Shown here piece by piece: positions 260 to 58,813 of a stretch of 64,000 nt of DNA. Numbering within the stretch: the stretch's first letter is position 1; each line of letters opens with the position of its first letter. Under the pieces are notes generated by a model, which saw only the letters and a list, made by a program, of their open reading frames with translations, was not told where the DNA came from and made no database searches. The translations under genes and the position numbers were made by a program. Source of the stretch: Sinomonas sp. ASV322 (GTDB lineage: Bacteria > Actinomycetota > Actinomycetes > Actinomycetales > Micrococcaceae); contig NZ_JAVFJJ010000003.1 of NCBI RefSeq assembly GCF_030908245.1, forward strand, positions 124,001-188,000. Direction: 5' to 3'.

Positions 260-1951
<1,692 letters not shown>

Positions 1952-2109
1952 GGGCGCGGCGCGACGTTCTGGTCCGTTTCTTGGGCCGCTCGCGCAGTGT
2001 TTGGCAGTGACACGCCGGGTTTCTACCGATTGGGACGAAACAACTGGACGGGAGCGCGGGCTGAGGGTCGACGCTACGTCGCTTTACCGACGAGAACGGA
2101 GAACCGGAC

Positions 2110-2682
2110 ATGGCAAAGCTCATCGTGAGCGAGAACGTCTCGCTCGACGGAGTCATTCAGGACCCGGCCGGCGATGAAGGCTTCAGCCGCGGAGGCTGGG
2201 TCGGACTGATAGCGGCTCACGAGGACCTGGCCAAGGTCGCGCTCAATGAGGCGCTCGGCGCAGAGGCCTTCCTGCTCGGCCGGCGGAGCTACGAGTGGCT
2301 GGCCGCACGATGGCCATCCCGGTCCGGCGCCTTGGCGGACAGGCTCAACAGCTTGCCCAAGTACGTCCTGTCCTCCACCCTCGGAGATCCCGCCTGGAAC
2401 AACTCGACCGTGCTGTCCGGCGATGCTGTGGATGCGGTCTCGAAGCTGAAGCAGACGCTGACAGGGGAAATCGTCGTCGCAGGCAGCTTCCAGCTCCTGC
2501 GCACGCTGCTCGAGCACGACCTCGTCGACGAGCTGAGGCTGAAGGTCTTCCCGGTTGTGCTCGGGGCTGGCAACCGTCTCTTCGGCGAGACGAGCGAGAA
2601 GAAGCCAATGCGGCTTGTCGACAGCCGAATCCTCGGCGAGGGCATCGCCTTCCTCACCTACGAGCTGGTCCGGGGCTCCTAG
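2110..2682 (+). CDS. dihydrofolate reductase family protein (RibD C-terminal type)
   Basis: The 190-residue product begins AKLIVSENVSLDGVIQDP, the typical first strand and loop of the RibD C-terminal/DHFR-like fold (YwjB/YyaP group). It continues with FLLGRRSYEWLAARWP and ends with the GSFQLLRTLLEHDLVDELRLKVFPVVLG-like block, shortened here, that marks this family. Members bind NADPH and are presumed reductases of unknown substrate; they are not the folate enzyme, which is encoded separately at 42.8-43.3 kb. A GGAGAA site precedes the ATG. GC content is visibly lower than in the neighbours, and the gene ends convergently 31 bp from the AlkA-like gene. Confidence 0.8.
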   Translation: MAKLIVSENVSLDGVIQDPAGDEGFSRGGWVGLIAAHEDLAKVALNEALGAEAFLLGRRSYEWLAARWPSRSGALADRLNSLPKYVLSSTLGDPAWNNSTVLSGDAVDAVSKLKQTLTGEIVVAGSFQLLRTLLEHDLVDELRLKVFPVVLGAGNRLFGETSEKKPMRLVDSRILGEGIAFLTYELVRGS

Positions 2683-2713
2683 CATCCGGCCGCAGAGGAA
2701 CACGGGCTTGGTC

Positions 2714-3706
2714 TCAGTGGCCTCGGTGGTCCTGGATCGTCATGCGCGGGCCGTAGCGCGGCGCCCGCACGCCCGCAAGGCCGAGCATTCGCACGACGCG
2801 CTGGCGCTGCCCGCGCCATGGTTCGAGGAGTCGGAGCATCCCGGCGTCGTCCGTGCGCTCGCCCGTGAGCGCGTAGCCCACGAATTTTGCGAGGTGGTAG
2901 TCGCCCACCGAGATCGAGTCCGGGTCAGCGTGCGTTCGCTGGGTGATCTCCGCGGCGGTCCACACGCCGATGCCCGGAATGGTCTGGAGGCCCGCGGAGG
3001 CCTCGGAGGCCGTCTTCGCGGCCAGGCGCTCAAGGCCCGACGCCGAGCGCAGCGCCCGCATGATCGTCGCCGAGCGCTGGGGCCCGACGCCCGCGCGGTG
3101 CCACTCCCACGACGGAACGCGGAGCCACTCCGCGGCCGACGGCGGGACGACAAGGCCCGCCGGAGCGGCGCGGCCCGCCCCCGGGGCAGGCGATCCGAAG
3201 CGGCGCATGAGGTACCGATATGCTCGGCGGGCCTCGACTCCCGTGACCTTCTGCTCGAGGATTGCGGGCACGAGCTCCTGGGTCACGCGTCCCGTCGCGG
3301 GCAGGCGCAGCCCCGGGTTCCGCCGTCGTGCCTCGCGCACGAGGGGAGGCAGAGTCGAGTGGAACGGCTCGGCGTCGAACGCCTCCCATGAGTCGGTGAG
3401 CCCGAGGAGCGCGGGCGCGGATTCGATGGCCGACGCCGCCCCCTCGCCCCATGCGCGGGCCCGCAGCTCACGCCGGGCGTGCGTGAGGAGGAGCGACGCC
3501 GGGCCCTCGGGCGTGCGGAACGCCGTCCATAGCCCGGCGGGGTGGGCCGCGAAGGCGGGGTCGCCGTCGCCCCTCTGAAGTGGGAAGCACGTCGCGGCGA
3601 GGGAATAGTGCTCGGGGGCCTCCCAGACGTCTTCGGCGTCTGGCTTCCCTGACGCGCCTTCGGACGCGGCCGATGCGGCGCGCGCGAACGGGGGAGCCAA
3701 GGTCAC
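2714..3706 (-). CDS. DNA-3-methyladenine glycosylase family protein (AlkA-like)
   Basis: This 330-residue protein carries the HhH-GPD fold of AlkA-type base excision glycosylases, which remove alkylated purines from DNA. The helix-hairpin-helix is LQTIPGIGVWTAAEI near residues 241-255, and the expected catalytic aspartate follows in SVGDYHLAKF near 268. An EQKVTG segment near 150 marks the start of the catalytic half. The N-terminal half is the AlkA_N-like domain with little conservation. The start used is a GTG at 3706 with no clear ribosome site, so a downstream start is possible. It is divergent from the VOC gene. Confidence 0.82.
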   Translation of the reverse strand: MTLAPPFARAASAASEGASGKPDAEDVWEAPEHYSLAATCFPLQRGDGDPAFAAHPAGLWTAFRTPEGPASLLLTHARRELRARAWGEGAASAIESAPALLGLTDSWEAFDAEPFHSTLPPLVREARRRNPGLRLPATGRVTQELVPAILEQKVTGVEARRAYRYLMRRFGSPAPGAGRAAPAGLVVPPSAAEWLRVPSWEWHRAGVGPQRSATIMRALRSASGLERLAAKTASEASAGLQTIPGIGVWTAAEITQRTHADPDSISVGDYHLAKFVGYALTGERTDDAGMLRLLEPWRGQRQRVVRMLGLAGVRAPRYGPRMTIQDHRGH

Positions 3707-3846
3707 CCGAGCATCATGTCACGGCCCGGCGACAATTCCCCGGCACCTCACAGATGCAGACCCTTGACGCCCTTGGGGCGCCCCCGAAGAATCGCCGTAG
3801 GGCGCGCATCCGACGCTCGGTCCCCCCACCGACGGAAGGCAACACC

Positions 3847-4245
3847 ATGGCTGGACAAGTTGTGCACTTCGAGATTCCCGCAGACGATTCGACCCGCGCA
3901 GGCTCGTTCTACTCCGAGGCCTTCGGCTGGAACCTCATGCCGGTCCCCGGGATGGACTACACGATGGTCGGCACGACTCCGTCGAACGAGATGGGTGCCC
4001 CGACGGAGCCGGGGGCCATCAACGGCGGCATGTACACGCGCAACGAGCAGTTCCCGCAGTCGCCCGTGGTCACGGTCGACGTCGAGGACATCGATGCGGC
4101 CCTCGCCAAGATCGAGTCCCTCGGCGGGAGCACCGTCTCGCCGAAGATCCCGGTGGGCGAGATGGGCTTTGCTGCCTACTTCAAGGACACGGAGGGCAAC
4201 ACTCTGGGCCTGTGGCAGAACGCTGCCCCGCCCGCGGCCGAGTAG
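3847..4245 (+). CDS. VOC family protein (glyoxalase/bleomycin-resistance fold)
   Basis: The 132-residue protein has the paired beta-alpha-beta-beta-beta modules of the vicinal oxygen chelate superfamily. It begins GQVVHFEIPADDSTRAGSFY and ends with AAYFKDTEGNTLGLWQ, the usual last strands. In this subgroup (close to CFP-30/27 family proteins) the function is mostly unassigned. A GGAAGG site lies 6-7 bases before the ATG, which fixes this start over in-frame upstream codons. It converges on dnaE2 with only 9 bp between the stops. Confidence 0.85.
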   Translation: MAGQVVHFEIPADDSTRAGSFYSEAFGWNLMPVPGMDYTMVGTTPSNEMGAPTEPGAINGGMYTRNEQFPQSPVVTVDVEDIDAALAKIESLGGSTVSPKIPVGEMGFAAYFKDTEGNTLGLWQNAAPPAAE

Positions 4246-4254
4246 CCGAGAGGT

Positions 4255-7200
4255 CTAGCGGAAATTCCGGCTCGAGGTCTTCGCCCGCAGCGGCAGGGCC
4301 TCGAGCCGGTCCGCGACAAGGTTCGTGACGCCTTCCTTCGACCGCTCGAGCAGACCGCGGACGATCATCGCCCCCGCGCTCTGCGCCACCCTCCGGTAGC
4401 GGGTCCAGACGCCGATGCTGCACACGATGTTGAGGATCCCCGTCTCGTCCTCGAGGTTCATGAACGTGATGCCCTGAGCCGTCTGCGGCCGCTGACGGTG
4501 CGTCACGATCCCCGCGACCTCGATCCGGGTTCCGTCCTCCGCCGCGCGCAGGGAGTCGATGCGCAGGACGCCGCGGGCGTCGAGCGCCTCGCGGGCGTGC
4601 CGCACGGGGTGGTCGTCGGTCGCGACGCCCGTGGCCCACAGGTCGTAGGCCACGGCCTCCTCGTCGCTGAGCTCGGGCAGGAGGGGAGGCTGGACGAACG
4701 GCTGCGTCCCCGGCAGCTGGCCCGGCCGCTCGAGCGCCGCGGCTCCGGCCCGCCACAGGGCCTCGCGGCGCGTGAGCCCGAGGGAGTCGAGGGCCCCGGC
4801 CGAGGCGAGCGATTCGAGCTGCTCGGCACTCAGGCCCGTCCGCCGCGAGAGCTCGGCGAGCTCCCGGAAGGGGCCGTTGGCCTCGCGCTCGGCGACGATC
4901 CGCTCGGCGAGGTCCTTCCCGATACCCGTGACGCTCGAAAGCCCCATCCGCACGGCGCGGGACGCGTCGCGTCGGTGAGCGGCGCCGTCGTCCGGAGCCT
5001 CCGGATCGAAGCCCCCGACCTCGGGCTGGAAGATATTGAGGCACGCATCGAGCCCGCGGGGCTCGCCGGAAGGGGCGACGACGTCCGGCCCCTCGCCCGC
5101 GAGAGGTTCCAGGCACGCGTCCGCCTGCGAGCGGAGGATGTCCGGGCGCAGCACGGTCACGCCGTGTCGGCGCGCGTCCGCGACGAGCGTCTGCGGCGAG
5201 TAGAAGCCCATGGGCTGCGCCCGCAGGAGCGCCGCGAGGAACGCCCCCGGGTAGTGGAGCTTGAGCCACGAGCTCGCATACACGAGCACGCCGAAGGCGA
5301 TCGAATGCGACTCGGCGAAGCCGAAGTCCGCGAACGCGGCGATCTGGGTGTAGATCGCCCTCGCCTCGTCGTGGCTCAGCCCGTTCGCGGCCATGCCCGC
5401 GAAGAGCTTCTCTCGCAGGCTCCCGATGCGTTCGACGCCGCGCTTGGACCCCATCGCGCGGCGCAGCAGGTCCGCGTCCTCGGCGCTGCAGCCGCCGATC
5501 GCCATGGCCATCTGCATGACCTGCTCCTGGAACAGGGGGACGCCGAGCGTGCGCTTGAGCACGGGTTCGAGGAGCGGGTGAGGATAGGCCTCCTTCTCCT
5601 CGCCCGCTCGACGCCGGATATACGGGTGCACGGCCCCGCCCTGGATGGGTCCAGGCCGGATGAGCGCGATCTCGACGACGAGATCGTAGAAGCTGCGCGG
5701 TCGGAGCCTCGGGAGCGTGCTCATCTGAGCACGGGACTCGACCTGGAACACGCCCACCGAGTCGGCCCGGCACAGCATGTCGTAGACCGCAGGCTCTTCC
5801 TTCGGGATGTCCTCGATGCGCCAGCGCTCGCCGAAATGCTCGTCCACGAGGTCGAAGCAGTACTGGAGCGCCGCGAGCATGCCGAGGCCCAGGAGGTCGA
5901 ACTTGACGAGGCCCATCCACTCGCAGTCGTCCTTGTCCCACTGCAGCACCGTGCGGTTCTCCATGCGCGCGTGCTCGATCGGCACGACCTCGCCCACGGG
6001 CCGTTCCGTGAGCACCATGCCGCCCGAGTGGATCCCGAGGTGCCGCGGCGCTCCCAGGATCTCCCGCGCGAGGGCCACGACGCGCGGGGGGATGCGGTCG
6101 TCGTCGCCTGGAGGGGCCGTGGCTGAGGTGCCGGTGGCACCTTGGGCGCGTGCGCCGTCGTCGTTCGCGGCGTCGCCCGCCTCGGCCTCGGCCCCGGTCT
6201 CGGCGGCCTCGGCCGCGAGCCCGTCCCATCGATCGAGCCGCTTGGACCACGCGTCCTGCTGGCCCTGGCTGTAGCCGAGGGCCTTCGCGACGTCCCGCAC
6301 GGCGTTCTTGGGCCGATAGCTCACGACGTTCGCGACCTGCGCTGCGTTCCCCCGCCCGTACACCTCGTAGACGTGCTGGATGACCTCCTCTCGCCGATCC
6401 GAATCGAAGTCGACGTCGATGTCCGGCTCCTCTTCGCGCAGGCTCGAAAGGAAGCGCTCGAACGGCAGCCTGTACCGGATGCTGTCCACGGCCGTGATAC
6501 CGAGGAAGTAGCACACGGCCGAATTGGCGGCCGAACCGCGGCCCTGGCACAGGATGCCTCGGCCCTTCGCGAACTGGACGATCTCGTAGACGATGAGGAA
6601 GTAGCCGGGGAAGTCCTTCTTCTCGATCACCGCGAGCTCCTGCTCGACCCGTTGGCGGACCTCCTCGGGGGAAGCCGTGCTCCTCCACTGACCGCCGGGC
6701 ATGCCGTAGCGTTCGACGATGCCGCGGTCCACGAGCTCGCGCAGATAGGACATGGGCGTATGCCCGTCCGGGACCTTCTGCTTGGGCAGCTTCGGCCGGG
6801 CCGCCCGGAGCGGGAACGCGAGCTCGTCGGCGAAGCGCACGGTGTTCTCGACCGCGCCCGGATAGCGAGCGAAGCGCCGCGCCATTTCCGCCCCGCTGCG
6901 CAGATGAGCGCCGTCGCTCGCGGGGAGCCAGCCGTCGAGCTCGTCGAGGCTCCTCCGCGCCCGCACGGCGGCGACGGCGGTCGCGAGCGGATGCCGGGAG
7001 GGCTCGGCGTAGTGCACGGCGTTCGTCGCGACCGTCGGAAGGCCGAGCCGCGCGGCGATCGACGCGAGCGCGTCGTTGTGCGCGCTGTCGAGCGGGTTGC
7101 CGTGGTCGAAGAGCTCGACGACGACGGCGTCCCACCCGAAGCGGTCCGCGAGCTCCCGGAGCGCGCGGGCAGCCGCGGCCTTCCCTCCCGTCGCGAGGGC

Positions 7201-8256
7201 GCGCCGGACGGCGCCTTTGCGGCAGCCCGAGAGCACGAGGCAATGGCCCTGCAGCCGCTCCGTGAGGTCGTCGAGCTTGTAGACGGGGCGGCCCTTTTCC
7301 GCACCTCCCGCGAGCTGGGCGGCCGTGATCGCCCCGGCGAGCCGGTGATAGCCCTCCTCGCCGCGCGCGAGGACGAGCAGATGCTCGCCTTCCGGGTCCG
7401 CGACCCCGTTCTGCGGGCCGCCGAGGCCGAGGGAGAGCTCGGCGCCGAACACGGTCTTGAGCCCATACGCCTCCGCGGCCTCCGCGAGACGGACGACGCC
7501 GTAGAAGCCGTCATGATCCGTGATCGCGAGGGCGTGGAGGCCGAGCCGGACCGATTCCTCGACGAGTTCCTCGGGGGCCGAGGCCCCGTCGAGGAAGCTG
7601 TAGTGCGAATGCGCATGGAGTTCGGCGTACGGGACGGTGGGTGGGGCTGGCTCGGGGACCGAAACGGACGACGACGCGCGCTCGCCTCCCGATGCTGCCT
7701 CGCCGCTCGGGGCGGCGGCGGGGGCACCTGGCGCGTCGGGAGAGCCTGGGGCGCCTGCTGAGTCTGGGGCGCCTGCCGAGCTTGGGGCGCCTGCTGAGCT
7801 TGGGGCGCCTGCTGAGTCTGGGGCGCCTGCCGAGCTTGGGGCGCCTGCTGAGCTTGGGGCGCCTGCTGAGCCTGGGGCGCCTGCTGAGCCCGGGGTGCCT
7901 GCTGAGCTTTGGGTGCCTGCTGAGCCTGGGACAAGGGGCAGCGGGATGTACGGGCCGCGCTTCCGCGTCCACGCGGGGCTGTCCCCGCCGTCGTGCAGTT
8001 CTGGGGCGCGGCCGGTGCCGGTCCGTGGCGTCCCGGTTCGAGGCGCTCCGGTCCGAGGGGTCCCCGTTGAAGGGGTCTGGGACCGGCCCTTCCTGCCCGC
8101 CCCGGCCTTTCCAGCGGCTGCGCCGGCCTTCCCGGCGCCCGCCCCAGTTCCAGTGGCCGGCTCGGACGAGGCCTCGCTCGTGGGGAGCGTGACCTCTTTC
8201 CCCTCAAGGATGTCGTGGAGCTGCTGCCACGGTATTGGCGGGTTGTTCCAGCCCAT
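4255..8256 (-). CDS. dnaE2: error-prone DNA polymerase III alpha subunit
   Basis: This 1333-residue C-family polymerase is the catalytic member of the ImuA-ImuB-DnaE2 mutasome used for SOS-induced translesion synthesis. The DnaE2-specific start GWNNPPIPWQQLHDILEG is present, then a PHP domain from about residue 210 (HAHSHYSFLDGAS). The palm motif PDIDVDFDSD near 613 and KFDLLGLGMLA near 785 carry the catalytic aspartates; a helix-hairpin-helix and OB fold (VAGIVTHRQRPQTAQGITF) close the protein. It is longer than the usual 1050-1150 residues because of a low-complexity insert before the PHP domain (residues about 25-205) and an acidic Ala/Gly-rich linker near 680-715. AGGAGG precedes the ATG by 7 bases. 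It is last in the operon after imuB. Confidence 0.95.
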   Translation of the reverse strand: MGWNNPPIPWQQLHDILEGKEVTLPTSEASSEPATGTGAGAGKAGAAAGKAGAGRKGRSQTPSTGTPRTGAPRTGTPRTGTGRAPELHDGGDSPAWTRKRGPYIPLPLVPGSAGTQSSAGTPGSAGAPGSAGAPSSAGAPSSAGAPDSAGAPSSAGAPSSAGAPDSAGAPGSPDAPGAPAAAPSGEAASGGERASSSVSVPEPAPPTVPYAELHAHSHYSFLDGASAPEELVEESVRLGLHALAITDHDGFYGVVRLAEAAEAYGLKTVFGAELSLGLGGPQNGVADPEGEHLLVLARGEEGYHRLAGAITAAQLAGGAEKGRPVYKLDDLTERLQGHCLVLSGCRKGAVRRALATGGKAAAARALRELADRFGWDAVVVELFDHGNPLDSAHNDALASIAARLGLPTVATNAVHYAEPSRHPLATAVAAVRARRSLDELDGWLPASDGAHLRSGAEMARRFARYPGAVENTVRFADELAFPLRAARPKLPKQKVPDGHTPMSYLRELVDRGIVERYGMPGGQWRSTASPEEVRQRVEQELAVIEKKDFPGYFLIVYEIVQFAKGRGILCQGRGSAANSAVCYFLGITAVDSIRYRLPFERFLSSLREEEPDIDVDFDSDRREEVIQHVYEVYGRGNAAQVANVVSYRPKNAVRDVAKALGYSQGQQDAWSKRLDRWDGLAAEAAETGAEAEAGDAANDDGARAQGATGTSATAPPGDDDRIPPRVVALAREILGAPRHLGIHSGGMVLTERPVGEVVPIEHARMENRTVLQWDKDDCEWMGLVKFDLLGLGMLAALQYCFDLVDEHFGERWRIEDIPKEEPAVYDMLCRADSVGVFQVESRAQMSTLPRLRPRSFYDLVVEIALIRPGPIQGGAVHPYIRRRAGEEKEAYPHPLLEPVLKRTLGVPLFQEQVMQMAMAIGGCSAEDADLLRRAMGSKRGVERIGSLREKLFAGMAANGLSHDEARAIYTQIAAFADFGFAESHSIAFGVLVYASSWLKLHYPGAFLAALLRAQPMGFYSPQTLVADARRHGVTVLRPDILRSQADACLEPLAGEGPDVVAPSGEPRGLDACLNIFQPEVGGFDPEAPDDGAAHRRDASRAVRMGLSSVTGIGKDLAERIVAEREANGPFRELAELSRRTGLSAEQLESLASAGALDSLGLTRREALWRAGAAALERPGQLPGTQPFVQPPLLPELSDEEAVAYDLWATGVATDDHPVRHAREALDARGVLRIDSLRAAEDGTRIEVAGIVTHRQRPQTAQGITFMNLEDETGILNIVCSIGVWTRYRRVAQSAGAMIVRGLLERSKEGVTNLVADRLEALPLRAKTSSRNFR
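7751..7930 (-). repeat. ten 18-bp tandem repeats inside dnaE2
   Basis: Ten consecutive 18-bp units, reading GCGCCTGCTGAGCTTGGG with small variants on the plus strand, encode a six-residue Gly-Ala-Pro-Ser-Ser-Ala repeat at about residues 109-168 of DnaE2. The unit length is a multiple of three, so gain or loss of units keeps the frame. Adjacent shorter PRTG repeats (around 8030-8070) are similar in nature. Confidence 0.95.
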
Positions 8257-8275
8257 TCGTGCCTCCTGGGCTCTT

Positions 8276-8340
8276 ATCCGGTGCGAACCCGCTCAATCGG
8301 TGCTGGGCAGCACCGGTTATGCGGGTCCGGGCCGGGCATA
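8276..8340. repeat. intergenic nested-palindrome repeat, copy 1
   Basis: The core is an inner hairpin CGGTGCT-GGGC-AGCACCG at 8298-8315, enclosed by an outer arm pair ACCCGC/GCGGGT that continues imperfectly outward to 8276 and 8340. The same inner hairpin with GGGC loop occurs in two other intergenic gaps (36197-36252 and 37304-37363). This copy lies between imuB and dnaE2, inside the SOS operon, so it is probably transcribed. Confidence 0.75.
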
Positions 8341-8342
8341 TC

Positions 8343-9944
8343 TCAGTCGTAGCGGGCCTCGGCCCGCCAGGCCCCTTCTTCGCCGAGGAGGAGCCAGGCC
8401 TCGCCGTCGTCGTCGAGGATCTGGAACCGCTCGGCGTGGCGGCTCTGATCGGCGTCCCACCATCGCTGCCGCAGCGGCCACGGGCCAGCCCAGCTTCGGA
8501 CCCTTCTGCGGTCCTCACGGGGGCCGGGGCGGAACCACGTGGGCGGTGCCACGAGATCTCCCCGGGGCCCGACGCGGACGGTGGACCCGGCGTCGTCGAC
8601 GAGTTCCACGGGGAGCGGCTCGGGGAACACCGTGGCCGGGAGCGGCTCGGGGACCGTCCCGGGCCAGGGCTGAGTGGAGAGGGCCGCAGTGCCCGACGGC
8701 GGCGCCTCGCCCCACGGGAGCAGGAGGCAGCGCTCGGCGAGGAGTCGGCCCCCGCTCGCGACCGGGTGCAGCACCGAGCCGTGCCCGAGCATGCTCTGGA
8801 GACGGCGGAGACCGTGGTCGAGCCGCTCGTCGACGCCCCCGAAGAGGGCCTGCCCACGGCGCCCGAGCTGGTCGGTGCGTTCGGGCGTGAGGCGGATCTG
8901 CACGACGGGAGCGGCCAGGCCGTCGCCTGTCGAACGCCAGGTGGTCCTCGGCACGTGCGCGCGAGGATCGGTGGGACCGGACTGGAGCTGCCAGCGGACG
9001 CGGTCCACGACGTCGTTCGCGCCGAAATGCTGCGGGTGCCCCCAACAGCGCTCGGAGCGCTGGTCGGCGTCGTCCGTGATCTGGACGCGCAGCTCTGTGC
9101 ACGCGAGCCCCTGGAGCCTCAGCCCCTCGACGAAGTCCTCGGCTGTGGGCCGCACGGCGAAGGCGATCTGGTCCACACGGTCGAGCCCGGGCTCGAAGTC
9201 TGCGACGCGATCGAGGGGCGGGGGCGGCACTCGGGGCGTCACGGCCCGCGCGTCGTGCCCTTGGGCCCGCGCGTGGGCTTCGAGGCCTTCAGCCCCGAAG
9301 CGCGAGCGGACGTCCGACGGTGGGAGGGCCGCGAAGTCCCCGAGGGTTCGGATCCCGAGGCGGATGAGCAGCGAGCCGAGCTGGGGATCGCCGAGGACGC
9401 TCACCGGCAGCGGCGCGAGGAATGCGGGCGAGGCGCCCGCAGCGAGCACCAGCAGGGGAGAGAGCTCGTCCGCCCTGCGTGCCGCCTGTTCCGCCGCGAA
9501 GACGGAATCGGCGATCCCCGCGCGGGCCTCGAGCCCGAGCCGTGAGGCCGCCTCGAGGGCCGCGCCCCCGGCGGCCTCCTCGCTCCCGTAGTAGCGCGCG
9601 GCGCCGCGCGCTCGCAGCGCGCAGAGCCCCGGCCGGAGCACCTGGACTCCTGGGAGCGCTTCGTCGAAGCGGAGGAGCGTGGGTTCGAACTCGCGGGCGT
9701 CCCGGGCGGCGTCGGCCGGTGCGACGACGAGCGCGGGGCAGCGCGACTGGGCCTCCCGCAGACGGAGTCCCCGGACGACGCCCGCGTTCCTCGCCTCCGC
9801 CGAGCACACCGCGACGCGCCCCTTCTCCATGACGGCAGCGGGAACCCGGTCGGGAAGCTCGCCCGCGAGCTGGGCGGCGACGAGCGGCCAGTCCGGGAAC
9901 CAGACGACGAGGGCGCGTGTCACGCCGTTCCCGGAGCCGCTCAC
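8343..9944 (-). CDS. imuB: ImuB, Y-family polymerase-like mutasome protein
   Basis: This 533-residue protein is related to Y-family polymerases but belongs to the ImuB group, which links DnaE2 to the sliding clamp and has no polymerase activity of its own. The N-terminal ALVVWFPDWPLVAAQ replaces the DxDxF catalytic strand, and the usual SIDE acidic pair is not visible, consistent with an inactive site. A helix-hairpin-helix segment (IRLGIRTLGDFAALPP) lies near 210-225. The GTG start at 9944 overlaps the imuA stop in GTGA, which decides it over a GTG 21 bases downstream. The C-terminal tail contains RRVRSWAGPWPLRQRWW, typical of the ImuB C-terminal region. Confidence 0.92.
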   Translation of the reverse strand: MSGSGNGVTRALVVWFPDWPLVAAQLAGELPDRVPAAVMEKGRVAVCSAEARNAGVVRGLRLREAQSRCPALVVAPADAARDAREFEPTLLRFDEALPGVQVLRPGLCALRARGAARYYGSEEAAGGAALEAASRLGLEARAGIADSVFAAEQAARRADELSPLLVLAAGASPAFLAPLPVSVLGDPQLGSLLIRLGIRTLGDFAALPPSDVRSRFGAEGLEAHARAQGHDARAVTPRVPPPPLDRVADFEPGLDRVDQIAFAVRPTAEDFVEGLRLQGLACTELRVQITDDADQRSERCWGHPQHFGANDVVDRVRWQLQSGPTDPRAHVPRTTWRSTGDGLAAPVVQIRLTPERTDQLGRRGQALFGGVDERLDHGLRRLQSMLGHGSVLHPVASGGRLLAERCLLLPWGEAPPSGTAALSTQPWPGTVPEPLPATVFPEPLPVELVDDAGSTVRVGPRGDLVAPPTWFRPGPREDRRRVRSWAGPWPLRQRWWDADQSRHAERFQILDDDGEAWLLLGEEGAWRAEARYD

Positions 9945-10627
9945 GGCCAGCCCCCCGCAGCCGGGCGCGCGGCACCCGTGCGGAGCGCGACGACGTCCGG
10001 CGCGCTGAGGTCGACGACGGCGCTGCGGGCCAGGCCGCGCTGCGTGAGCTCGAGGTCCACGCGGTGTCGTGAGAGATGCCCATAGCCCTCGCCGAGGCCC
10101 TCCCAGCTCGTGCCGCGCATCCGCAGGACGGCCTCGCTCTGGGGCCATGGCCCGAGGACGAGGAGCGTCCCGGCCCGCTCGCGCAGCCGCGACCCGAGCT
10201 TCGCGGCCTCGCCGGGCGCCACGCGCCCCGGGCCCTGGGCGAGGAGGAGCGGCAGGACGTCGGCGAGGGCCGCGACGACGGGGAACCAGTGCTCCCCGGG
10301 ATCGGGGACGAGCACGAGCCGGTCGAGGGCGATGCCGAAGCCCGCGGCGGCCTCGGCGCCGAAGTCCGGGAATCCGACGGCTCCGCACCACTGTCCCTCG
10401 GACGAGGCGCCCGCGAGCAGGGCCATGGCCACGGAGAGCGGAACGTCGAGCGAGTACGCCGTGCCGCCGCGCAGGCCCGACGGCAGGAGCGGGGCGAAGC
10501 ACGGGAGCACGGGGTACGAGCCCTCGCGGTTGCGCCGCCCCTGGAGCACGTGGATGCGTTCCTGCAGCTCCTCGAGCGTGCCCGCACCAGAAGGTGTGGG
10601 GGGCAGCGTGGGGAGAGGCAGAGACAT
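9941..10627 (-). CDS. imuA: ImuA-like (RecA-fold) mutasome protein
   Basis: The 228-residue product sits first in the SOS cassette and resembles the actinobacterial ImuA-prime group, a short RecA-fold protein that supports ImuB and DnaE2 in damage-induced mutagenesis. Visible landmarks are LEELQERIHVLQGRR at the start, the strand GQWCGAVGFPDFG and GTLLVLGPWP. A clear Walker A is missing, as is common in this group. The ATG at 10627 has AGAGG only 1-2 bases upstream, too close for a Shine-Dalgarno, and a candidate -10 places the transcript start at this ATG, so translation may be leaderless. Its stop overlaps the imuB start. Confidence 0.85.
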   Translation of the reverse strand: MSLPLPTLPPTPSGAGTLEELQERIHVLQGRRNREGSYPVLPCFAPLLPSGLRGGTAYSLDVPLSVAMALLAGASSEGQWCGAVGFPDFGAEAAAGFGIALDRLVLVPDPGEHWFPVVAALADVLPLLLAQGPGRVAPGEAAKLGSRLRERAGTLLVLGPWPQSEAVLRMRGTSWEGLGEGYGHLSRHRVDLELTQRGLARSAVVDLSAPDVVALRTGAARPAAGGWP

Positions 10628-10662
10628 ACCTCTATTTTCGAAAGTATGTTCGATTAAGTCAA
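10627..10662 (-). promoter_or_regulatory. LexA (SOS) box within the imuA promoter
   Basis: The palindrome TCGAAAGTATGTTCGA at 10638-10653 matches the Gram-positive/actinobacterial LexA consensus (CGAAC-N4-GTTCG) with one changed base. On the minus strand it lies in the 17-bp spacer between TTGACT (10657-10662) and GAAAAT (10634-10639). This arrangement would let LexA occlude RNA polymerase. The -10 ends six bases before the imuA ATG. Confidence 0.85.
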
Positions 10663-10754
10663 CCTGCTGAAGTGTCGGTTCGGAGAAATCATCGTGCTAC
10701 GCGAGGCTTCGCGCGAGACGCCCCGCAACGGCCCCAGCGGATAGAGTTGGGGGC

Positions 10755-12140
10755 GTGAAATACGCCAACTCCGTCGTCGAGCTCATCGGGCACACGCCGC
10801 TGGTCAAGCTGCAGAAGGTGACTGAGGGCATCAAGGCGACGGTCCTCGTCAAGCTCGAGTACCTCAACCCCGGCGGCTCCATCAAAGACCGCATTGCCCT
10901 CAAGATGATCGAGGAGGCGGAGCGCTCCGGCCAGCTCGAGCCCGGCGGGACGATCGTCGAGCCGACGAGCGGCAACACGGGCGTTGGCCTGGCCCTCGTC
11001 GGCCAGCAGAAGGGCTACAAGTGCATCTTCGTCGTGCCGGACAAGGTCGGCGAGGAGAAGCGCGCGGTGCTCGAGGCCTACGGCGCCGAGGTCGTCGTGA
11101 CCCCGACGGCGGTCCCGCCCGAGTCGCCCCAGTCCTACTACGGCGTCTCCGACCGGCTCGTCCGCGAGATCGCGGGCGCGTTCAAGCCGGACCAGTTCTC
11201 CAACCCCGGCGCCCCCGCGAGCCACTACGAGACCACGGGGCCCGAGATCTGGGCCGACACGGACGGCAAGATCACCCACGTCGTCATCGGCGCGGGCACG
11301 GGCGGCACGATCACCGGAACGGGCCGCTACCTCAAGGACGTCTCGAAGGAGCGGCCCGAGTCCGACGGCGGCCAGGTCAAGGTCATCGGCGCCGATCCCG
11401 AGGGATCGGTGTACTCGGGCGGCAGCGGCCGGCCGTACTTCGTCGAGGGCGTCGGCGAGGACATGTGGCCCGCGAACTACGACAAGGCCGTCCCCGACGA
11501 TGTCCTCGCCGTGAGCGACGCCGACTCGTTCGCCATGACCCGCCGCCTTGCGCGCGAGGAGGGCCTCCTCGTGGGCGGGTCGTCGGGCATGGCCGTCGTT
11601 GCGGCCCTGCGTGTGGCGCGGGACCTGCCCGAGTCCGCGGTCGTCGTCGTCATCCTCCCGGACAGCGGGCGGGGCTACCTCGCCAAGATCTTCAACGACG
11701 ACTGGATGCGCTCGTACGGCTTCCTGCCCGGCGAGTCCGAGGCGACGATTGGGGACATCCTGCGCGGCAAGGACGGCAAGCTCCCGGACCTCGTCCATAC
11801 GCATCCCAACGAGACGGTGCGCGACGTCATCGACATCATGACCGAGTACGGCGTGAGCCACCTCCCGATCCTCTCGAACGAGCCGCCGGTCGTCATGGGC
11901 GAGGTGCTCGGCGCCGTCGACGAGCGCACCCTCTCGGCGAAGCTCTTCAGCGGCGAGGCCAAGCTCACCGACAAGATCTCGCAGCACATGGGCCCGAGGC
12001 TGCCCGTCATCGGCTCGCTCGAGAGCCAGGCGACTGCGCGCAAGATGCTCTCCCACGAGGATGCCCTCATGGTGACGTTCGTCGGCGCGCCGATCGGCAT
12101 CGTCACGCGCCACGATCTCCTGGCCAGTCTGAACAAGTAG
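10755..12140 (+). CDS. cbs: cystathionine beta-synthase
   Basis: This 461-residue enzyme condenses serine (or O-acetylserine) with homocysteine to cystathionine, using PLP. The N-terminal domain carries LNPGGSIKDRIALKMI with the PLP lysine near residue 44, PTSGNTGVGLALV near 75 and GAGTGGTITGTGRYLK near 180. A pair of CBS regulatory modules follows at about 330-460 (TVRDVIDIMTEYGVSHLPI and the second copy near the end). That C-terminal pair separates it from plain cysteine synthase. The GTG start at 10755 follows GGGGG. It lies 11 bp upstream of metB, forming a transsulfuration operon. Confidence 0.93.
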   Translation: MKYANSVVELIGHTPLVKLQKVTEGIKATVLVKLEYLNPGGSIKDRIALKMIEEAERSGQLEPGGTIVEPTSGNTGVGLALVGQQKGYKCIFVVPDKVGEEKRAVLEAYGAEVVVTPTAVPPESPQSYYGVSDRLVREIAGAFKPDQFSNPGAPASHYETTGPEIWADTDGKITHVVIGAGTGGTITGTGRYLKDVSKERPESDGGQVKVIGADPEGSVYSGGSGRPYFVEGVGEDMWPANYDKAVPDDVLAVSDADSFAMTRRLAREEGLLVGGSSGMAVVAALRVARDLPESAVVVVILPDSGRGYLAKIFNDDWMRSYGFLPGESEATIGDILRGKDGKLPDLVHTHPNETVRDVIDIMTEYGVSHLPILSNEPPVVMGEVLGAVDERTLSAKLFSGEAKLTDKISQHMGPRLPVIGSLESQATARKMLSHEDALMVTFVGAPIGIVTRHDLLASLNK

Positions 12141-55001: not shown

Positions 55002-55063
55002 CATCGACTGCTCCGTAACTGTCGTTTTGGAGCCTCAAAACGACAGTTACGGAGCAGTCGATG
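55002..55063. terminator. 28-bp perfect hairpin between convergent genes
   Basis: CATCGACTGCTCCGTAACTG and eight more bases to 55029 pair without mismatch with 55036-55063, around a GAGCCT loop. It ends the plus-strand reductase gene. Its right arm contains the last codons and the TAA stop of the minus-strand metalloprotease gene. The length is far beyond a normal terminator. Confidence 0.9.
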
Positions 55064-55553
55064 GGGTGTGACCAGCCCTGAGGCGGCGCACGGCGGCGAC
55101 CACGGCTTGGCCATCGCCGAAACAGGGCAGGAGAAGGACGATGTGCGCGAGGTACCACCAAGCCAAGCCAAGCTGCGGGACGGCCACCCAGAGCACCACG
55201 CCCGGGACCACGCAGGCGAGGGGACCGGCGAGGGCGACGGCGATGGCTTGGCGCGCGGTGATCTCGCCGTGGGGCTTGAGCGAGACCCGAAACGCTATGG
55301 CTTCGACAGACACAGCACGGATGCCTCGACACAGTCCCAGCGCGGCGAAGTGGCCGCATTCGTGGACGACATACGATCCGAGCATTCCCATCGAGGCATG
55401 TAGCAGTATTCCCAGCGCAAGGGGAAGCGCTCCCCACGCCCTATGGGCGAGGCCAAGCCAGACGGCTGTGGCAACAAACAGCGCAGGCGCGGCCAGAATC
55501 CAGCTGTAGCGAAGGGCAAGTGCCGATCCGAAACGGAGCGTGCGGACGAGCAC
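55047..55553 (-). CDS. small membrane metalloprotease (M50/site-2-protease-like)
   Basis: The 168-residue protein has about five hydrophobic helices and a zinc-protease motif VVHECGHFAAL (HExxH) near residues 64-74. A second acidic motif appears in LLPCFGDGQAVVAAV near 147, comparable to the DG motif of site-2 proteases. The size matches small peptide-maturation M50 proteases. It starts with a GTG at 55553, four bases after the two-TM gene, and closes the operon. The suggested role is cutting the membrane-embedded peptide encoded at the operon start; this is inference from order and analogy with EpeP. Confidence 0.68.
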   Translation of the reverse strand: MLVRTLRFGSALALRYSWILAAPALFVATAVWLGLAHRAWGALPLALGILLHASMGMLGSYVVHECGHFAALGLCRGIRAVSVEAIAFRVSLKPHGEITARQAIAVALAGPLACVVPGVVLWVAVPQLGLAWWYLAHIVLLLPCFGDGQAVVAAVRRLRAGHTPSTAP

Positions 55554-55557
55554 TGGC

Positions 55558-55881
55558 TTACCTGATATCTGGCCCGTGTTCGACCAGCGCTTCCCTATAG
55601 CGGCGAAGCCAGCCGAAGATCAGGATCGACACGAAGGCCAGCACCGAGAGCACAAGCCACAACGCGACGAAGACCGTCCAGTTCTCGACTCCGAGTTCGA
55701 GGGACATCGAACCGTCGGAGCGATCAATGGCTTCGAAATAGACGCCGCCGAAAAGGCCGACGGCCCGAACGCCTGGCCCCCGGGTCGAAAACATGAGCAC
55801 GAGGATTGCCGTCGTCGCGACGATGAGGGTTCCGAGGAACCCGGCCAGCACCGCATTAACTACCTGTAACAGCCGTTTCAT
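55558..55881 (-). CDS. two-TM membrane protein of unknown function
   Basis: The 107-residue product has helices near 10-31 (AVLAGFLGTLIVATTAILVL) and 68-91 (FVALWLVLSVLAFVSILIFG), with an outside loop of about 36 residues containing YFEAIDRSDGSMSLELGVE. The ATG at 55881 lies inside the end of the permease gene (26-bp overlap) and has AGGAGA upstream. I do not recognise the family. In a peptide-producing operon, a protein of this size would be a candidate for immunity or a transporter accessory. Confidence 0.6.
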   Translation of the reverse strand: MKRLLQVVNAVLAGFLGTLIVATTAILVLMFSTRGPGVRAVGLFGGVYFEAIDRSDGSMSLELGVENWTVFVALWLVLSVLAFVSILIFGWLRRYREALVEHGPDIR

Positions 55882-57289
55882 GGCGCTTTCTCCTCGTGAT
55901 CTGCTTCATGCCGACGATGGAATAGACGACCGCGAGGGCTTGAGCGCACGCGGCACCGAACCCGAGCCACGGGCCGGGAACCTGGAGCAGACCTACCATT
56001 GCGCCGATCGAGACCAGGGCCCCAATGCAGACCGCGTAGCCCGTGAACACCACAATCGGGCTGTCGTTCTCCGCGACGAACACGATGGCAATGAGGGTTG
56101 TCAGTACGACTCCGCTCACGAGTGCGATGGCGACGATGCGTAGATCGGCCAAGGCTTCGGGCCGCGCCGCCGCGAACAACGAGATTGGGACGGCGTGGAC
56201 CGTCGTCACGATCGTCTGCCCGAGCAGCATGTGCACGACTTCCTTGGCCGCGGATCTCGAGTAACCGGGCATGAGCCGGAGTCGATTCGTGGCCGCATAG
56301 ACATAGATGCCTTGGGAAAGCAGGATCAGCGCCGCGTACACGAATGCCGTGCCCCCGTCGAGCCACAGCATGACCGAGCAGATGTAGGCCACGACGACAG
56401 CGATCCACCATTCGGACCGGCGGGCGAGCGCCGTGACGGTTGGCCAGACGGGCAATCCGGGGAGAGGCACAGCCGCCCTCACGAAGCGACGGCGAATGGG
56501 AAACGCCGCTGGCGAAGTCAGGGCGGCAAGGACGACCATCACCGTAGTGAGGGCGAGAAAGGCTGCGGCCGCAACGGGCCAGCCCAGTCGTTCGTGCAGA
56601 AATGGAAAGAGGTTCACGACATGGAATTCAATGCCGCCGCGCAGGAAGTCGCTGCTCATGTCCCGAATAAGGGTCATGGATGCCCCGTTGTACCACAGAG
56701 TCAGGGCTGCCATGAGCGAGAGGACCACGACGTGAACCAGCCGAGATCCTCCGAACGCCTGCACGACCCGGGAGACGACGTTGTACAAGACCGAGAGCAC
56801 CAGGTACGCAGTGACAGCAGTCATGGCGATTCCCGCGAGCAGGCCCGGGACAGCGTCAGGTCCGAGCCTCACGAGCGAAGCAATAGCGATGGGCAAGAAG
56901 AGGCCGCCAACGCACACTCCAACCATCGCGAACTCGTACAGGGCGAGCGCCGCGGACCGCTCGCGCTGACTCACTGGTAGGAGCATCGTGTACCGGACGA
57001 GATCGTCTGACGTCACGAAGAGGATCTTGACGAAGATGAATGCAATGAGGCTCCAGAAGACGACCGTCGTGGTCGAGATCTGGATGACGAGGAACAGCTC
57101 GCGCCGTCCAGGGACTATCTCCCGGAAGACCGACGTCGCGACTGCGCCAAGGACGACGACGCCTGCGAGAACTCCGACACCGAGGAAGATTCTCGCGAGC
57201 CGGCTCCGGAGGACACCTGCCGAGAGTGCTTTGCGAACGAAGTAGCGGAAGAAGAGCCGGGCGACAATGAGGACCTTGGCGACGCTCAC
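55856..57289 (-). CDS. ABC-2-like transporter permease
   Basis: This 477-residue polytopic protein has about ten to twelve TM helices in two bundles (residues about 30-240 and 290-470) separated by a cytoplasmic basic stretch (PIRRRFVRAAV). The VTSDDLVRYTMLLPVSQRER segment after the second helix is typical of ABC-2 type peptide or antibiotic exporters (the YydJ/EcsB-like layout). Its GTG start overlaps the ATPase stop by four bases, so the two form one transporter. GC is below the window average. Confidence 0.75.
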   Translation of the reverse strand: MSVAKVLIVARLFFRYFVRKALSAGVLRSRLARIFLGVGVLAGVVVLGAVATSVFREIVPGRRELFLVIQISTTTVVFWSLIAFIFVKILFVTSDDLVRYTMLLPVSQRERSAALALYEFAMVGVCVGGLFLPIAIASLVRLGPDAVPGLLAGIAMTAVTAYLVLSVLYNVVSRVVQAFGGSRLVHVVVLSLMAALTLWYNGASMTLIRDMSSDFLRGGIEFHVVNLFPFLHERLGWPVAAAAFLALTTVMVVLAALTSPAAFPIRRRFVRAAVPLPGLPVWPTVTALARRSEWWIAVVVAYICSVMLWLDGGTAFVYAALILLSQGIYVYAATNRLRLMPGYSRSAAKEVVHMLLGQTIVTTVHAVPISLFAAARPEALADLRIVAIALVSGVVLTTLIAIVFVAENDSPIVVFTGYAVCIGALVSIGAMVGLLQVPGPWLGFGAACAQALAVVYSIVGMKQITRRKRHETAVTGS

Positions 57290-58026
57290 GCCAACTCGCC
57301 GCAGTCTAGTGCCTCGCGAATGGTACGGCTCAACCGACTCCCGCCCGCGAGTTCGGCTCCCACGTCGAGATCAGCGACGAGTTTGCCGGCCCTGAGAACG
57401 AGAACTCGATCGGCGACGTCTTCGAGAAGACTGAAATCATGGGAGCAGAGCAGCACGCTCTGTCCACGGGATCTCATGTCGCGGAACTCCGCCTTGCACA
57501 CATCGACGGCATCGAGGTCAATGCCGTTGAGTGTCTCATCGATGACCGTCAGCCGGCGCCTCAGCAGGAACGCGCTGCTGAGCAGAAGCTTCTTCTGCAT
57601 TCCGTGGGAATAGTCCTCGATGAGATGGCTGGATCTCCCGGCCATGCCGAACGTCGAGAACTGCTCCTGAATTCTCTCGTCGGTCGGGCCAATTTGGCGA
57701 TAAAGGCCTGCAAGCACTCGAATGTACTCGACTCCCGTGAGGAATTCGGGCAACTCGTTGTCGCTAGGAAGATGGATCGCCCCGATGCGTGCTGTTTCGC
57801 TGCGGTGATCGACGCCATTGACGAGAACGGCTCCTTCTTGCCGCTCCATGAGGTTGAAGATCAACCGGATGAGCGTCGATTTTCCAGAGCCATTCGGCCC
57901 GACGAGCCCGACGATTTCGCCGGCCTCTATACAGAAGCTGACTCCTGTCAGGGCTGGCGCGTTCGACGAGGGGTAGACGAAGCCTACATCGTGAACATTC
58001 AGCGGAAAGTCGTCTTTTTCGAGCAT
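57286..58026 (-). CDS. ABC transporter ATP-binding protein
   Basis: The 246-residue ATPase has Walker A GLVGPNGSGKSTLIRLI near residue 40, a signature region YSHGMQKKLLLSSAFLL near 143 in place of LSGGQ, and Walker B LTVIDETLNGIDLDAV near 162 with the catalytic Glu. CSHDFSLLEDVADRVLVL carries the switch histidine. The degenerate signature (Y-S-H-G-M) is the type found in exporters of the BcrA/EcsA kind. It lies 40 bp after the peptide gene and pairs with the permease. Confidence 0.9.
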   Translation of the reverse strand: MLEKDDFPLNVHDVGFVYPSSNAPALTGVSFCIEAGEIVGLVGPNGSGKSTLIRLIFNLMERQEGAVLVNGVDHRSETARIGAIHLPSDNELPEFLTGVEYIRVLAGLYRQIGPTDERIQEQFSTFGMAGRSSHLIEDYSHGMQKKLLLSSAFLLRRRLTVIDETLNGIDLDAVDVCKAEFRDMRSRGQSVLLCSHDFSLLEDVADRVLVLRAGKLVADLDVGAELAGGSRLSRTIREALDCGELA

Positions 58027-58066
58027 TCGTGTTCTCTGGCCGAAGATCCCTCGCTGCAGGGCGCGA

Positions 58067-58321
58067 TTAACGGCATTCGAAGGAGACGTTGACGCCCCAG
58101 TCTTTATACTGCCATGCGCCCGTGAAGTTTTTGCCCTGATTCACGACACACCAGATCGCGAGTCCGACGAGCAGTCCGACGCCGATTGCGAGGATAACCG
58201 CCAGGAATACCAAGAACCAGGCGTCGTATCGAAGCACGGCAGCGTCGAAGCGGGTCTTCGAACGCTCAGCGAGCTGAGCTGCCCAAGGAGTTGTCGGCAT
58301 AACAGCAAGAATTGTTGACAT
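58067..58321 (-). CDS. small peptide with internal TM and cysteine-bounded tail, candidate precursor
   Basis: The 84-residue product starts with an ATG behind GAGGTGGGGGAT. The N-terminal 32 residues are soluble and slightly basic, residues 35-56 are one strong TM helix (AWFLVFLAVILAIGVGLLVG), and the tail runs from Cys58 to Cys83-Arg84. Between the two cysteines the tail is rich in Trp, Tyr, Asn and Gly (KNFTGAWQYKDWGVNVSF). I know no family match. Position at the head of an ABC exporter-metalloprotease operon makes a secreted or processed peptide plausible; a membrane accessory subunit is the alternative. Confidence 0.6.
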   Translation of the reverse strand: MSTILAVMPTTPWAAQLAERSKTRFDAAVLRYDAWFLVFLAVILAIGVGLLVGLAIWCVVNQGKNFTGAWQYKDWGVNVSFECR

Positions 58322-58448: not shown

Positions 58449-58745
58449 CTAACATTTTCGGTGACTTGGCAGGCTGTGCGCGAGGGCAGCATTCGAGGCT
58501 GCCATCCCCGTCATCGACTCGGCGAGCCGCAGGATCTCGACGGCGGCGGGGAAGACCTCCGTCCCCGCAGAGTTCAGCCTCATGCCGCCTTGGCGGCGCC
58601 CGAAAAGCTTCGTTCCTACGAAACGCTCGAAGTCCGCGACTTGCCGGCTGACAGCCGACTGGGTGAACCCCAGCTCGGCGGCCGCTTCAGTAGTGCTTCC
58701 GCACCTGGCCACCGCCACGAAGGCCCTGACTCCGCTCAGATGCAC
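58449..58745 (-). pseudogene. LysR-type regulator, N-terminal DNA-binding fragment only
   Basis: The 98-residue frame (GTG at 58745, GGGGGG upstream) encodes a complete LysR winged helix, LSGVRAFVAVARCGSTTEAA then FTQSAVSRQVADFERFVGTK, and the linker helix to about residue 85. It then stops after LPSHRKC. Normal LysR proteins have about 300 residues, so the whole ligand-binding domain is missing. No remains of that domain are visible downstream before the operon promoter. It may be a relic left by insertion of the adjacent operon, or a short dominant regulator. Confidence 0.65.
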
Positions 58746-58813
58746 CGTACCCCCCACGGTCGCCTCTACCGATATATCAATACACGGTACACGACTTCGG
58801 AAGCATCAATTGA

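Follow-up and report, generated by a model that had tools for sequence, protein, structure and literature searches.

Introduction

The closest described counterparts of the locus analysed here are the gene clusters of TMcins, an architecture that was characterised experimentally in a preprint of June 2026 (PMC13252029). As described in the accessible part of that preprint, the precursor TmcA is cut by the protease TmcP with the aid of the two-transmembrane (two-TM) protein TmcE, is disulfide-bonded, is exported by the ABC transporter TmcBC, and forms pores; in the case of S. aureus TMcin-G1905, the cleavage, disulfide, export, and escort were shown. The cysteines of TMcin-G1905, C25 and C50, are separated by 24 residues, and the structure 3B4R is named for TmcP. 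TMcin clusters are present across Gram-positive bacteria and, according to the same text, have been missed by genome mining (PMC13252029). A similar logic is known from the EPE system of Bacillus subtilis (epeXEPAB, yydFGHIJ), where a membrane protease matures the peptide, and where the immunity role of the ABC pair is presented as uncertain in the accessible part of the source (PMC7026026).

Results

The window, i.e., the whole analysed stretch of 64,000 nucleotides from Sinomonas sp. ASV322, contains five confirmed minus-strand open reading frames (ORFs), which encode, in order, a tmcA-like precursor peptide (84 aa; 58067–58321), a tmcB-like ABC ATPase (246 aa; 57286–58026), a tmcC-like permease (477 aa; 55856–57289), a tmcE-like two-TM protein (107 aa; 55558–55881), and a tmcP-like S2P/DUF3267 intramembrane protease (168 aa; 55047–55553). 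The tight spacing described in the sequence-only reading was reproduced from the ORF coordinates (a 40-bp gap, a 4-bp overlap, a 26-bp overlap, and a 4-bp gap), as was the lower GC content of the block (0.617 vs. 0.703 in the remaining window). As the same order of genes recurs in other genera, families, and orders, the five-gene set is far beyond chance. No oxidoreductase gene was found within the Sinomonas operon. A 62-bp palindrome with perfect 28-nt arms and a 6-nt loop (55002–55063) overlaps the 3' end of the protease ORF and is a possible terminator; its further copies are present elsewhere in the genome.

A sixth gene, which the sequence-only reading did not mention, accompanies the set in Sinomonas. 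This minus-strand ORF (58449–58757) encodes a LysR-like protein of 102 aa that comprises a helix-turn-helix (HTH) domain (Pfam HTH_1, E 2.5e-19) and no effector-binding domain. It is located upstream of the set at all three Sinomonas loci, one of the two others being at a different chromosomal place, and in the alignment it is 71% and 67% identical to its counterparts there. The operon is probably regulated by this protein, a role that we infer.

The precursor peptide has a single hydrophobic segment (Kyte-Doolittle), corresponding to one TM helix at about residues 36–54, as expected of a TMcin precursor. Its two cysteines, Cys58 and Cys83, have the spacing of C25 and C50 of TMcin-G1905, with 24 residues between them. 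A C-terminal Cys-x23-25-Cys together with F[T/S]G was found in 19 of 19 intact family peptides. The counterpart of the window peptide in S. susongensis is 69% identical to it (NG86 dN 0.22, dS 1.74, the latter near saturation). We placed the cleavage site with the use of TMcin-G1905 numbering, and, because of the cysteine spacing of TMcin-G1905, the predicted leader comprises residues 1–33 and the mature product is probably a peptide of about residues 34–84 that retains the transmembrane helix, rather than residues 58–84 as proposed earlier. Comparison of 11 family peptides with NCBIfam models gave no convincing match (the best, E 0.0017 in one of the 11, was to an unrelated membrane family), and a PDB search with the peptide profile returned nothing significant (best E 0.11). 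Profile comparison did not relate the peptide to the two-TM protein (probability 0.8%).

The ATPase is clear (ABC_tran, E 1.2e-22) and carries subfamily motifs visible in the alignment: PEFLTG, YSHGMxKK, and IDETLNGID. The permease, which would correspond to the 12-TM permease TmcC, is conserved across loci; it had no sequence match in Pfam, NCBIfam, or PDB, save a weak MalF_N_TM match of one member, a PDB search with its profile found none, and its AlphaFold model was unusable (pLDDT 51.6). The product of the next gene has two hydrophobic segments (residues 11–29 and 70–88), and its model matches in 11 of 13 loci, which gives the core operon a conserved two-TM protein, like TmcE, with a predicted escort and possible immunity function.

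The membrane protease has the HExxH motif (H64-E-C-G-H68) and a distal DG (D147-G148) in membrane helices, as does the S2P/M50 clan, and thereby also the HExxH and distal Asp of TmcP; H64, E65, H68, D147, and G148 are invariant in all 17 family proteases. Its kinship to the clan is established by the match of the family profile to the site-2 protease MJ0392 (3B4R; E 8.3e-5), in which both motifs are aligned. The similarity of the window protease to DUF3267 (PF11667), the family of TmcP, is below the Pfam cut-off (22.5 vs. 27.1 bits), and only five of 12 relatives match DUF3267 at E 0.1. The fold search brought no confirmation: with the AlphaFold model (3 rows, pLDDT 73.7), Foldseek found none below E 0.001 in PDB among 44 matches up to E 10 (best E 0.96).

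With the use of permease profiles, we gathered 16 loci, including that of the window. The peptide gene is intact in 13 of them and a presumed remnant in the remaining three, and a search of 394 genomes that started from the peptide returned the same genomes as that started from the permease (G000, G385, G907, and G962), of which G907 and G962 had contributed to neither profile. Thus, the peptide is a regular partner in the operon, and homologous operons do not routinely lack it. The five-gene set recurs across Actinomycetota, but the system is not one of actinobacteria, as had been supposed: it is also present, partly rearranged, on plasmids of Bacillota, namely, of Staphylococcus, Roseburia, Paraclostridium, and Peribacillus. 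A thiol-redox gene is present at three Bacillota loci. Among ORFs of at least 60 aa at the Peribacillus plasmid locus, we found those of the peptide, ATPase, and permease, and not those of the two-TM protein and protease. Plasmid searches returned no G1905 record and yielded instead plasmid pHOB2 of S. epidermidis, where genes are in the order ATPase, permease, two-TM protein, protease, and peptide and have an HTH gene and an ORF of 149 aa as neighbours. This layout agrees with that of the TMcin core operon (tmcB to tmcA, with tmcP as the fourth ORF) and bicistronic regulatory operon, as far as the preprint describes them (PMC13252029). A phage origin of the set was considered and dropped, as a search of 50,697 phage records with the window peptide returned no match, though one IMG/VR contig (L058) has the set. 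An ATPase scan of viral contigs gave at least 53 loci, among which L063 was recognised as the same contig as L058.

Six of the 16 loci contain a broken gene. The ABC genes are intact and the peptide gene is gone in L006 and L031, while L030 and L048 have broken ABC genes and an intact peptide gene. In L031 (genome G193), a 20-codon ORF and an out-of-frame terminal ECR-stop were read by eye as the peptide remnant, a weaker case than the remnant in Sinomonas G007, which was aligned. Genome G007 has lost the peptide and protease genes and has kept those of the regulator, ABC transporter, and TmcE-like protein; its ABC and TmcE-like genes are under purifying selection. In Sinomonas G001, an orphan tmcE that is intact occupies the same site of the chromosome.

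Discussion

Results of our analysis, in which TMcin-G1905 was compared by description, indicate with high confidence that the Sinomonas set is a TMcin-type bacteriocin cluster of the order tmcA-B-C-E-P. Its very probable role is to produce, process, and secrete an antibacterial TMcin-class peptide, which bears out the gist of the earlier proposal of an operon for peptide production, cleavage, and export, with the biochemistry being predicted for Sinomonas. The system is, however, already described, and not undescribed as that proposal held: the operon agrees with the TMcin clusters, as presented in the preprint, in every gene type tested (PMC13252029). Both have a one-TM precursor with a leader and two cysteines 24 residues apart, an ABC ATPase and permease, a two-TM protein, and an S2P protease of the four-TM type, in which HExxH is accompanied by a distal Asp. 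The differences from TMcin-G1905 are the first rather than last position of the peptide gene, the HTH-only LysR-like gene upstream, the chromosomal location, and the lack of tmcD, which, according to the preprint, is missing outside staphylococci (PMC13252029).

What we infer for Sinomonas, including all biochemistry, the place of cleavage, and the activity, may proceed as follows. TmcA would enter the producer's membrane via its single helix, and TmcP, a site-2-type protease missing the gating helices, would cut the leader near D33/A34, with TmcE replacing the missing gate. The Cys58-Cys83 disulfide would be formed by host oxidoreductases, and the 51-residue peptide would be lifted from the membrane and released by TmcBC to make pores in competitors.

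The same machinery could release a pheromone-like signal instead of a bacteriocin. Actinobacterial members have no known activity and the HTH-only regulator adjoins the set, as might be expected in that case, but no receptor gene recurs among the loci inspected, the closest tested relative, TMcin-G1905, is described as antimicrobial and pore-forming (PMC13252029), and the patchy presence and frequent decay of the loci fit a bacteriocin, which makes a signal improbable. Still less probable is an unreleased peptide that serves as a small, fixed component of the ABC transporter. While its one TM helix would suit a subunit, as would the adjacency of its gene to that of the ATPase at those actinobacterial loci that were inspected, the two genes are lost independently of each other (in L006 and L031 vs. 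L030 and L048), the peptide gene stands last in pHOB2, and the dedicated protease and the thiol-redox genes of three Bacillota loci favour processing.

The reading of the set as an epeXEPAB-like epipeptide operon that is missing its radical-SAM epimerase is hardly tenable. The resemblance noted earlier holds as an analogy, i.e., a common logic of a peptide, an M50-type protease, and an ABC transporter, and not as kinship, which we dropped. The absence of the radical-SAM enzyme was borne out, the best match to the YydG model in the genome reaching 20.7 bits against the cut-off of 300 (one of 14 control genomes was above it), and the family peptides lack a convincing NCBIfam match. Nothing indicates a loss of the epimerase, as none of the genes that are named in the annotations of the plasmid loci encodes such an enzyme. 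The window operon differs from EPE, as described in the accessible part of the source, also in a peptide to which no similarity was detected, a predicted disulfide ring, an additional two-TM protein, and a far larger permease-like protein (PMC7026026). The SKF system of B. subtilis is similar in the logic of its peptide, protease, ABC, and thioredoxin-like genes and in a disulfide, but its product is described as a sactipeptide that is cyclised head to tail and depends on a radical-SAM enzyme for its production (PMC8172795). Compared with daptides (PMC10036551), the window operon has no modifying enzymes; kinship to them was rejected, as the model of their HExxH protease was weakly matched by one of 17 proteases (E 0.035), near chance.

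According to the preprint, self-immunity of TMcin producers was outside the scope of its experiments (PMC13252029). We tentatively propose, as somewhat less than an even chance, that self-immunity in TMcin systems is conferred by TmcE, either by itself or together with TmcBC, and that non-producers such as G007 and G001 keep immunity-only leftovers as protection. The purifying selection in G007 is no proof that the genes were kept for immunity, as the peptide and protease genes may have been lost recently. Toxicity of the peptide in the absence of the ABC transporter, a rule that we also considered, did not hold cleanly, given L030 and L048.

TMcins are recent, and the experiments described concern S. 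aureus (PMC13252029); our analysis adds actinobacterial members that are chromosomal and have the complete set of five genes. The combination of Cys-x24-Cys and FTG in the peptide with PEFLTG...YSHGMxKK...DETLNGID in the ATPase provides a search signature for more members. Plasmid pHOB2 of S. epidermidis 14.1.R1 carries an overlooked candidate cluster; the literature found on this strain, in its accessible parts, does not trace the gene behind its activity against Propionibacterium acnes. Finally, the natural gene-loss variants make the question of TMcin immunity testable.

Identity of the operon

The minus-strand operon of the window (84-aa peptide, ABC ATPase, permease, two-TM protein, and HECGH protease) agrees in every testable feature with the TMcin bacteriocin class, as far as this class is presented in the portions of preprint PMC13252029 on which we draw, and is very probably a new actinobacterial member of it. 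In those portions, TmcA is a peptide with one TM helix, a 45-residue leader and a C25-C50 disulfide; TmcP is a protease of the S2P clan with an HEYMH motif and a DUF3267 domain, whose closest solved structure is 3B4R; TmcBC is an ABC exporter with a 12-TM permease; TmcE is a two-TM escort required for cleavage; and TmcD is a DsbA-like protein of staphylococci that is missing outside them. The sequence-only reading had recognized the right kind of system but called it undescribed, which the preprint contradicts. Its five ORFs were borne out in sizes, starts, and spacings by ORF re-reading of the window, and so was the lower GC content of the block (0.617 in the operon vs. 0.703 in the rest of the window). 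Its proposed product, residues 58-84, appears wrong: aligning C25 and C50 of TmcA, as given in the preprint excerpts, with C58 and C83 would put the start of the mature window peptide at A34. The system appears not to be in print for Sinomonas, judging from a literature search whose listed papers do not mention this genus.

The window ATPase is an ordinary ABC ATPase, and the permease matches no family in Pfam or NCBIfam. Pfam matches of the protease are weak, both being below the cut-off (DUF3267, E 1.5e-4; Peptidase_M50, E 0.018). All 19 intact peptides, a set that includes two nearly identical Paraclostridium rows, contain F[T/S]G and two cysteines with 23-25 residues between them, at most three residues from the C-terminus, and a conserved [A/G]W motif marks the start of the TM helix. 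The H, E, and H of HExxH and a later DG are invariant in 17/17 proteases. A 12-row protease profile matched 3B4R (Methanocaldococcus jannaschii S2P) with an E value of 0.021, and a 17-row profile with 8.3e-5, the HExxH and DG being aligned. Against this kinship, AlphaFold/Foldseek comparison of the protease gave no match, and the Staphylococcus epidermidis protease has no Pfam family at 0.001.

Distribution in Actinomycetota

The permease is present in 3/15 Sinomonas genomes, and permease-profile matches were found in 5/295 family, 9/396 order, and 4/394 class genomes, in total 15 genomes with 16 loci, including the window. Genus searches around two carrier genomes yielded no further loci (1/11; 1/35 with the peptide profile). 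A six-frame HMM scan of 13 non-window loci detected the ATPase and the permease in 13, the protease in 12, and the two-TM protein and the peptide in 11 each, one of the peptides (locus L042) being internally deleted (E 2.4e-4); ORF lists show all five genes in L055 and L056. Since the peptide model was built from only three Micrococcaceae peptides, its matches upstream of the ATPase in nine order-level loci represent an independent test. Peptide-first searches gave three strong genomes at the family level (E 1e-22 or better), all with the peptide beside the permease, the next match (E 0.004) being background, and at the class level the same four of 394 genomes as the permease-first search. The co-occurrence that the sequence-only reading proposed to check is found, with an intact peptide gene in 13 of the 16 loci and a remnant in three (G007, G193, and G492). 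One 1.9-Mb genome (G543) carries two diverged copies of the entire set on two contigs. A complete set is also present on a contig filed as viral (IMGVR_UViG_2868695505_000001), among ORFs judged by eye to be transposase-like.

Within Sinomonas, S. susongensis has all five genes at a different chromosomal place from the window, its site between the GNAT and AKR genes being empty. G007 has the set at the same place as the window. An ORF for a LysR-like protein cut down to its HTH domain lies upstream of the operon in 3/3 loci (window 58449-58757, HTH_1 E 2.5e-19; G007 locus 5150-5455; S. susongensis locus 4071-4376). The GNAT gene occurs in 15/15 genus genomes. Within about 1.5 kb of it, the window's own genome and G007 have operon genes, G001 has a two-TM gene that is an intact orphan (locus L117 2287-2631; 61% identity over 100 aa), and the remaining 12 genomes have no operon gene. 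The orphan is located between GNAT and AKR, and other operon genes were not found nearby.

Gene decay and possible self-immunity

A gene is broken in 6/16 loci. In G007, the HTH, ATPase, permease, and two-TM genes are intact, only a short remnant with a shifted frame is left of the peptide gene, and the protease gene is a stub running into a 62-bp palindrome, which sits at the deletion border. In the window, this palindrome (55002-55063; arms CTGCTCCRTAACTGTCGT; hairpin of -52.3 kcal/mol) overlaps the protease stop; its arm has 27 matches in the own genome (at most one mismatch; reversed control pattern 0), and it is a dispersed repeat that may be REP-like. The peptide gene is broken in G193 and also in G492, where an insertion taken by eye for a transposase splits the permease. 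G362 has an apparent frameshift in the permease. A simple rule that no peptide is kept without the ABC transporter is argued against by G286 (ATPase frame broken, permease cut, two-TM gene not found) and G422 (permease, two-TM, and protease genes fused through a deletion, peptide intact), which lost the transporter and retained the peptide.

TmcE is presumed, in the preprint portions used here (PMC13252029), to prevent autotoxicity. The G007 and G001 loci, as natural variants, agree with a protective TmcE, with or without the ABC pair, although these leftovers may also represent a recent loss or a fossil ORF.

Relatives on Bacillota plasmids

The window peptide as query matched a protein of a Roseburia sp. 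831b plasmid (44% over 75% of the query, E 9e-4), whose locus (L057) encodes the peptide, a two-TM protein, and an HEYLH protease, with the ABC pair downstream of IS110. Directly behind the protease is a gene (8092-9624) for a protein with two thioredoxin-like domains and a DsbD_2 region; a cysteine desulfurase is also present. Additional plasmid members occur in Paraclostridium bifermentans (three records), S. epidermidis (pHOB2), and Peribacillus muralis. The P. bifermentans locus L062 is an unusual variant: the genes behind the ABC pair (8512-10921) encode one protein matching Thioredoxin_4, another matching DUF3267 (E 3.7e-19), and a third in which a PqqD domain is fused to an HExxH membrane protein. 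The thioredoxin-type genes of Paraclostridium and Roseburia suggest other solutions in place of tmcD.

The mobilizable 9.3-kb plasmid pHOB2 carries the ATPase, permease, two-TM, protease, and peptide genes in that order (728-3964), the peptide being last, and no DsbA-like ORF was seen among the ORFs listed beyond base 600. Its host, S. epidermidis 14.1.R1, inhibits all P. acnes strains tested, and the agent is protease-sensitive, heat-labile, surface-adsorbing, and produced on agar, according to the part of PMC4770681 used here. The genome paper suggested a type VII system (PMC5347227); as a conjecture, the cluster on pHOB2 may be another candidate source of this activity.

Proposed mechanism

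The TMcin of PMC13252029 is active on Micrococcus luteus and forms pores in target membranes, and each step outlined below is demonstrated there for the S. aureus peptide, in the portions of the preprint drawn on. By analogy, the Sinomonas precursor would be inserted in the membrane, where the S2P-type protease would cut off its leader, the two-TM protein serving as gate or escort. Its disulfide would be formed by host enzymes, and the ABC exporter would extract the peptide from the membrane, the released peptide then probably forming pores.
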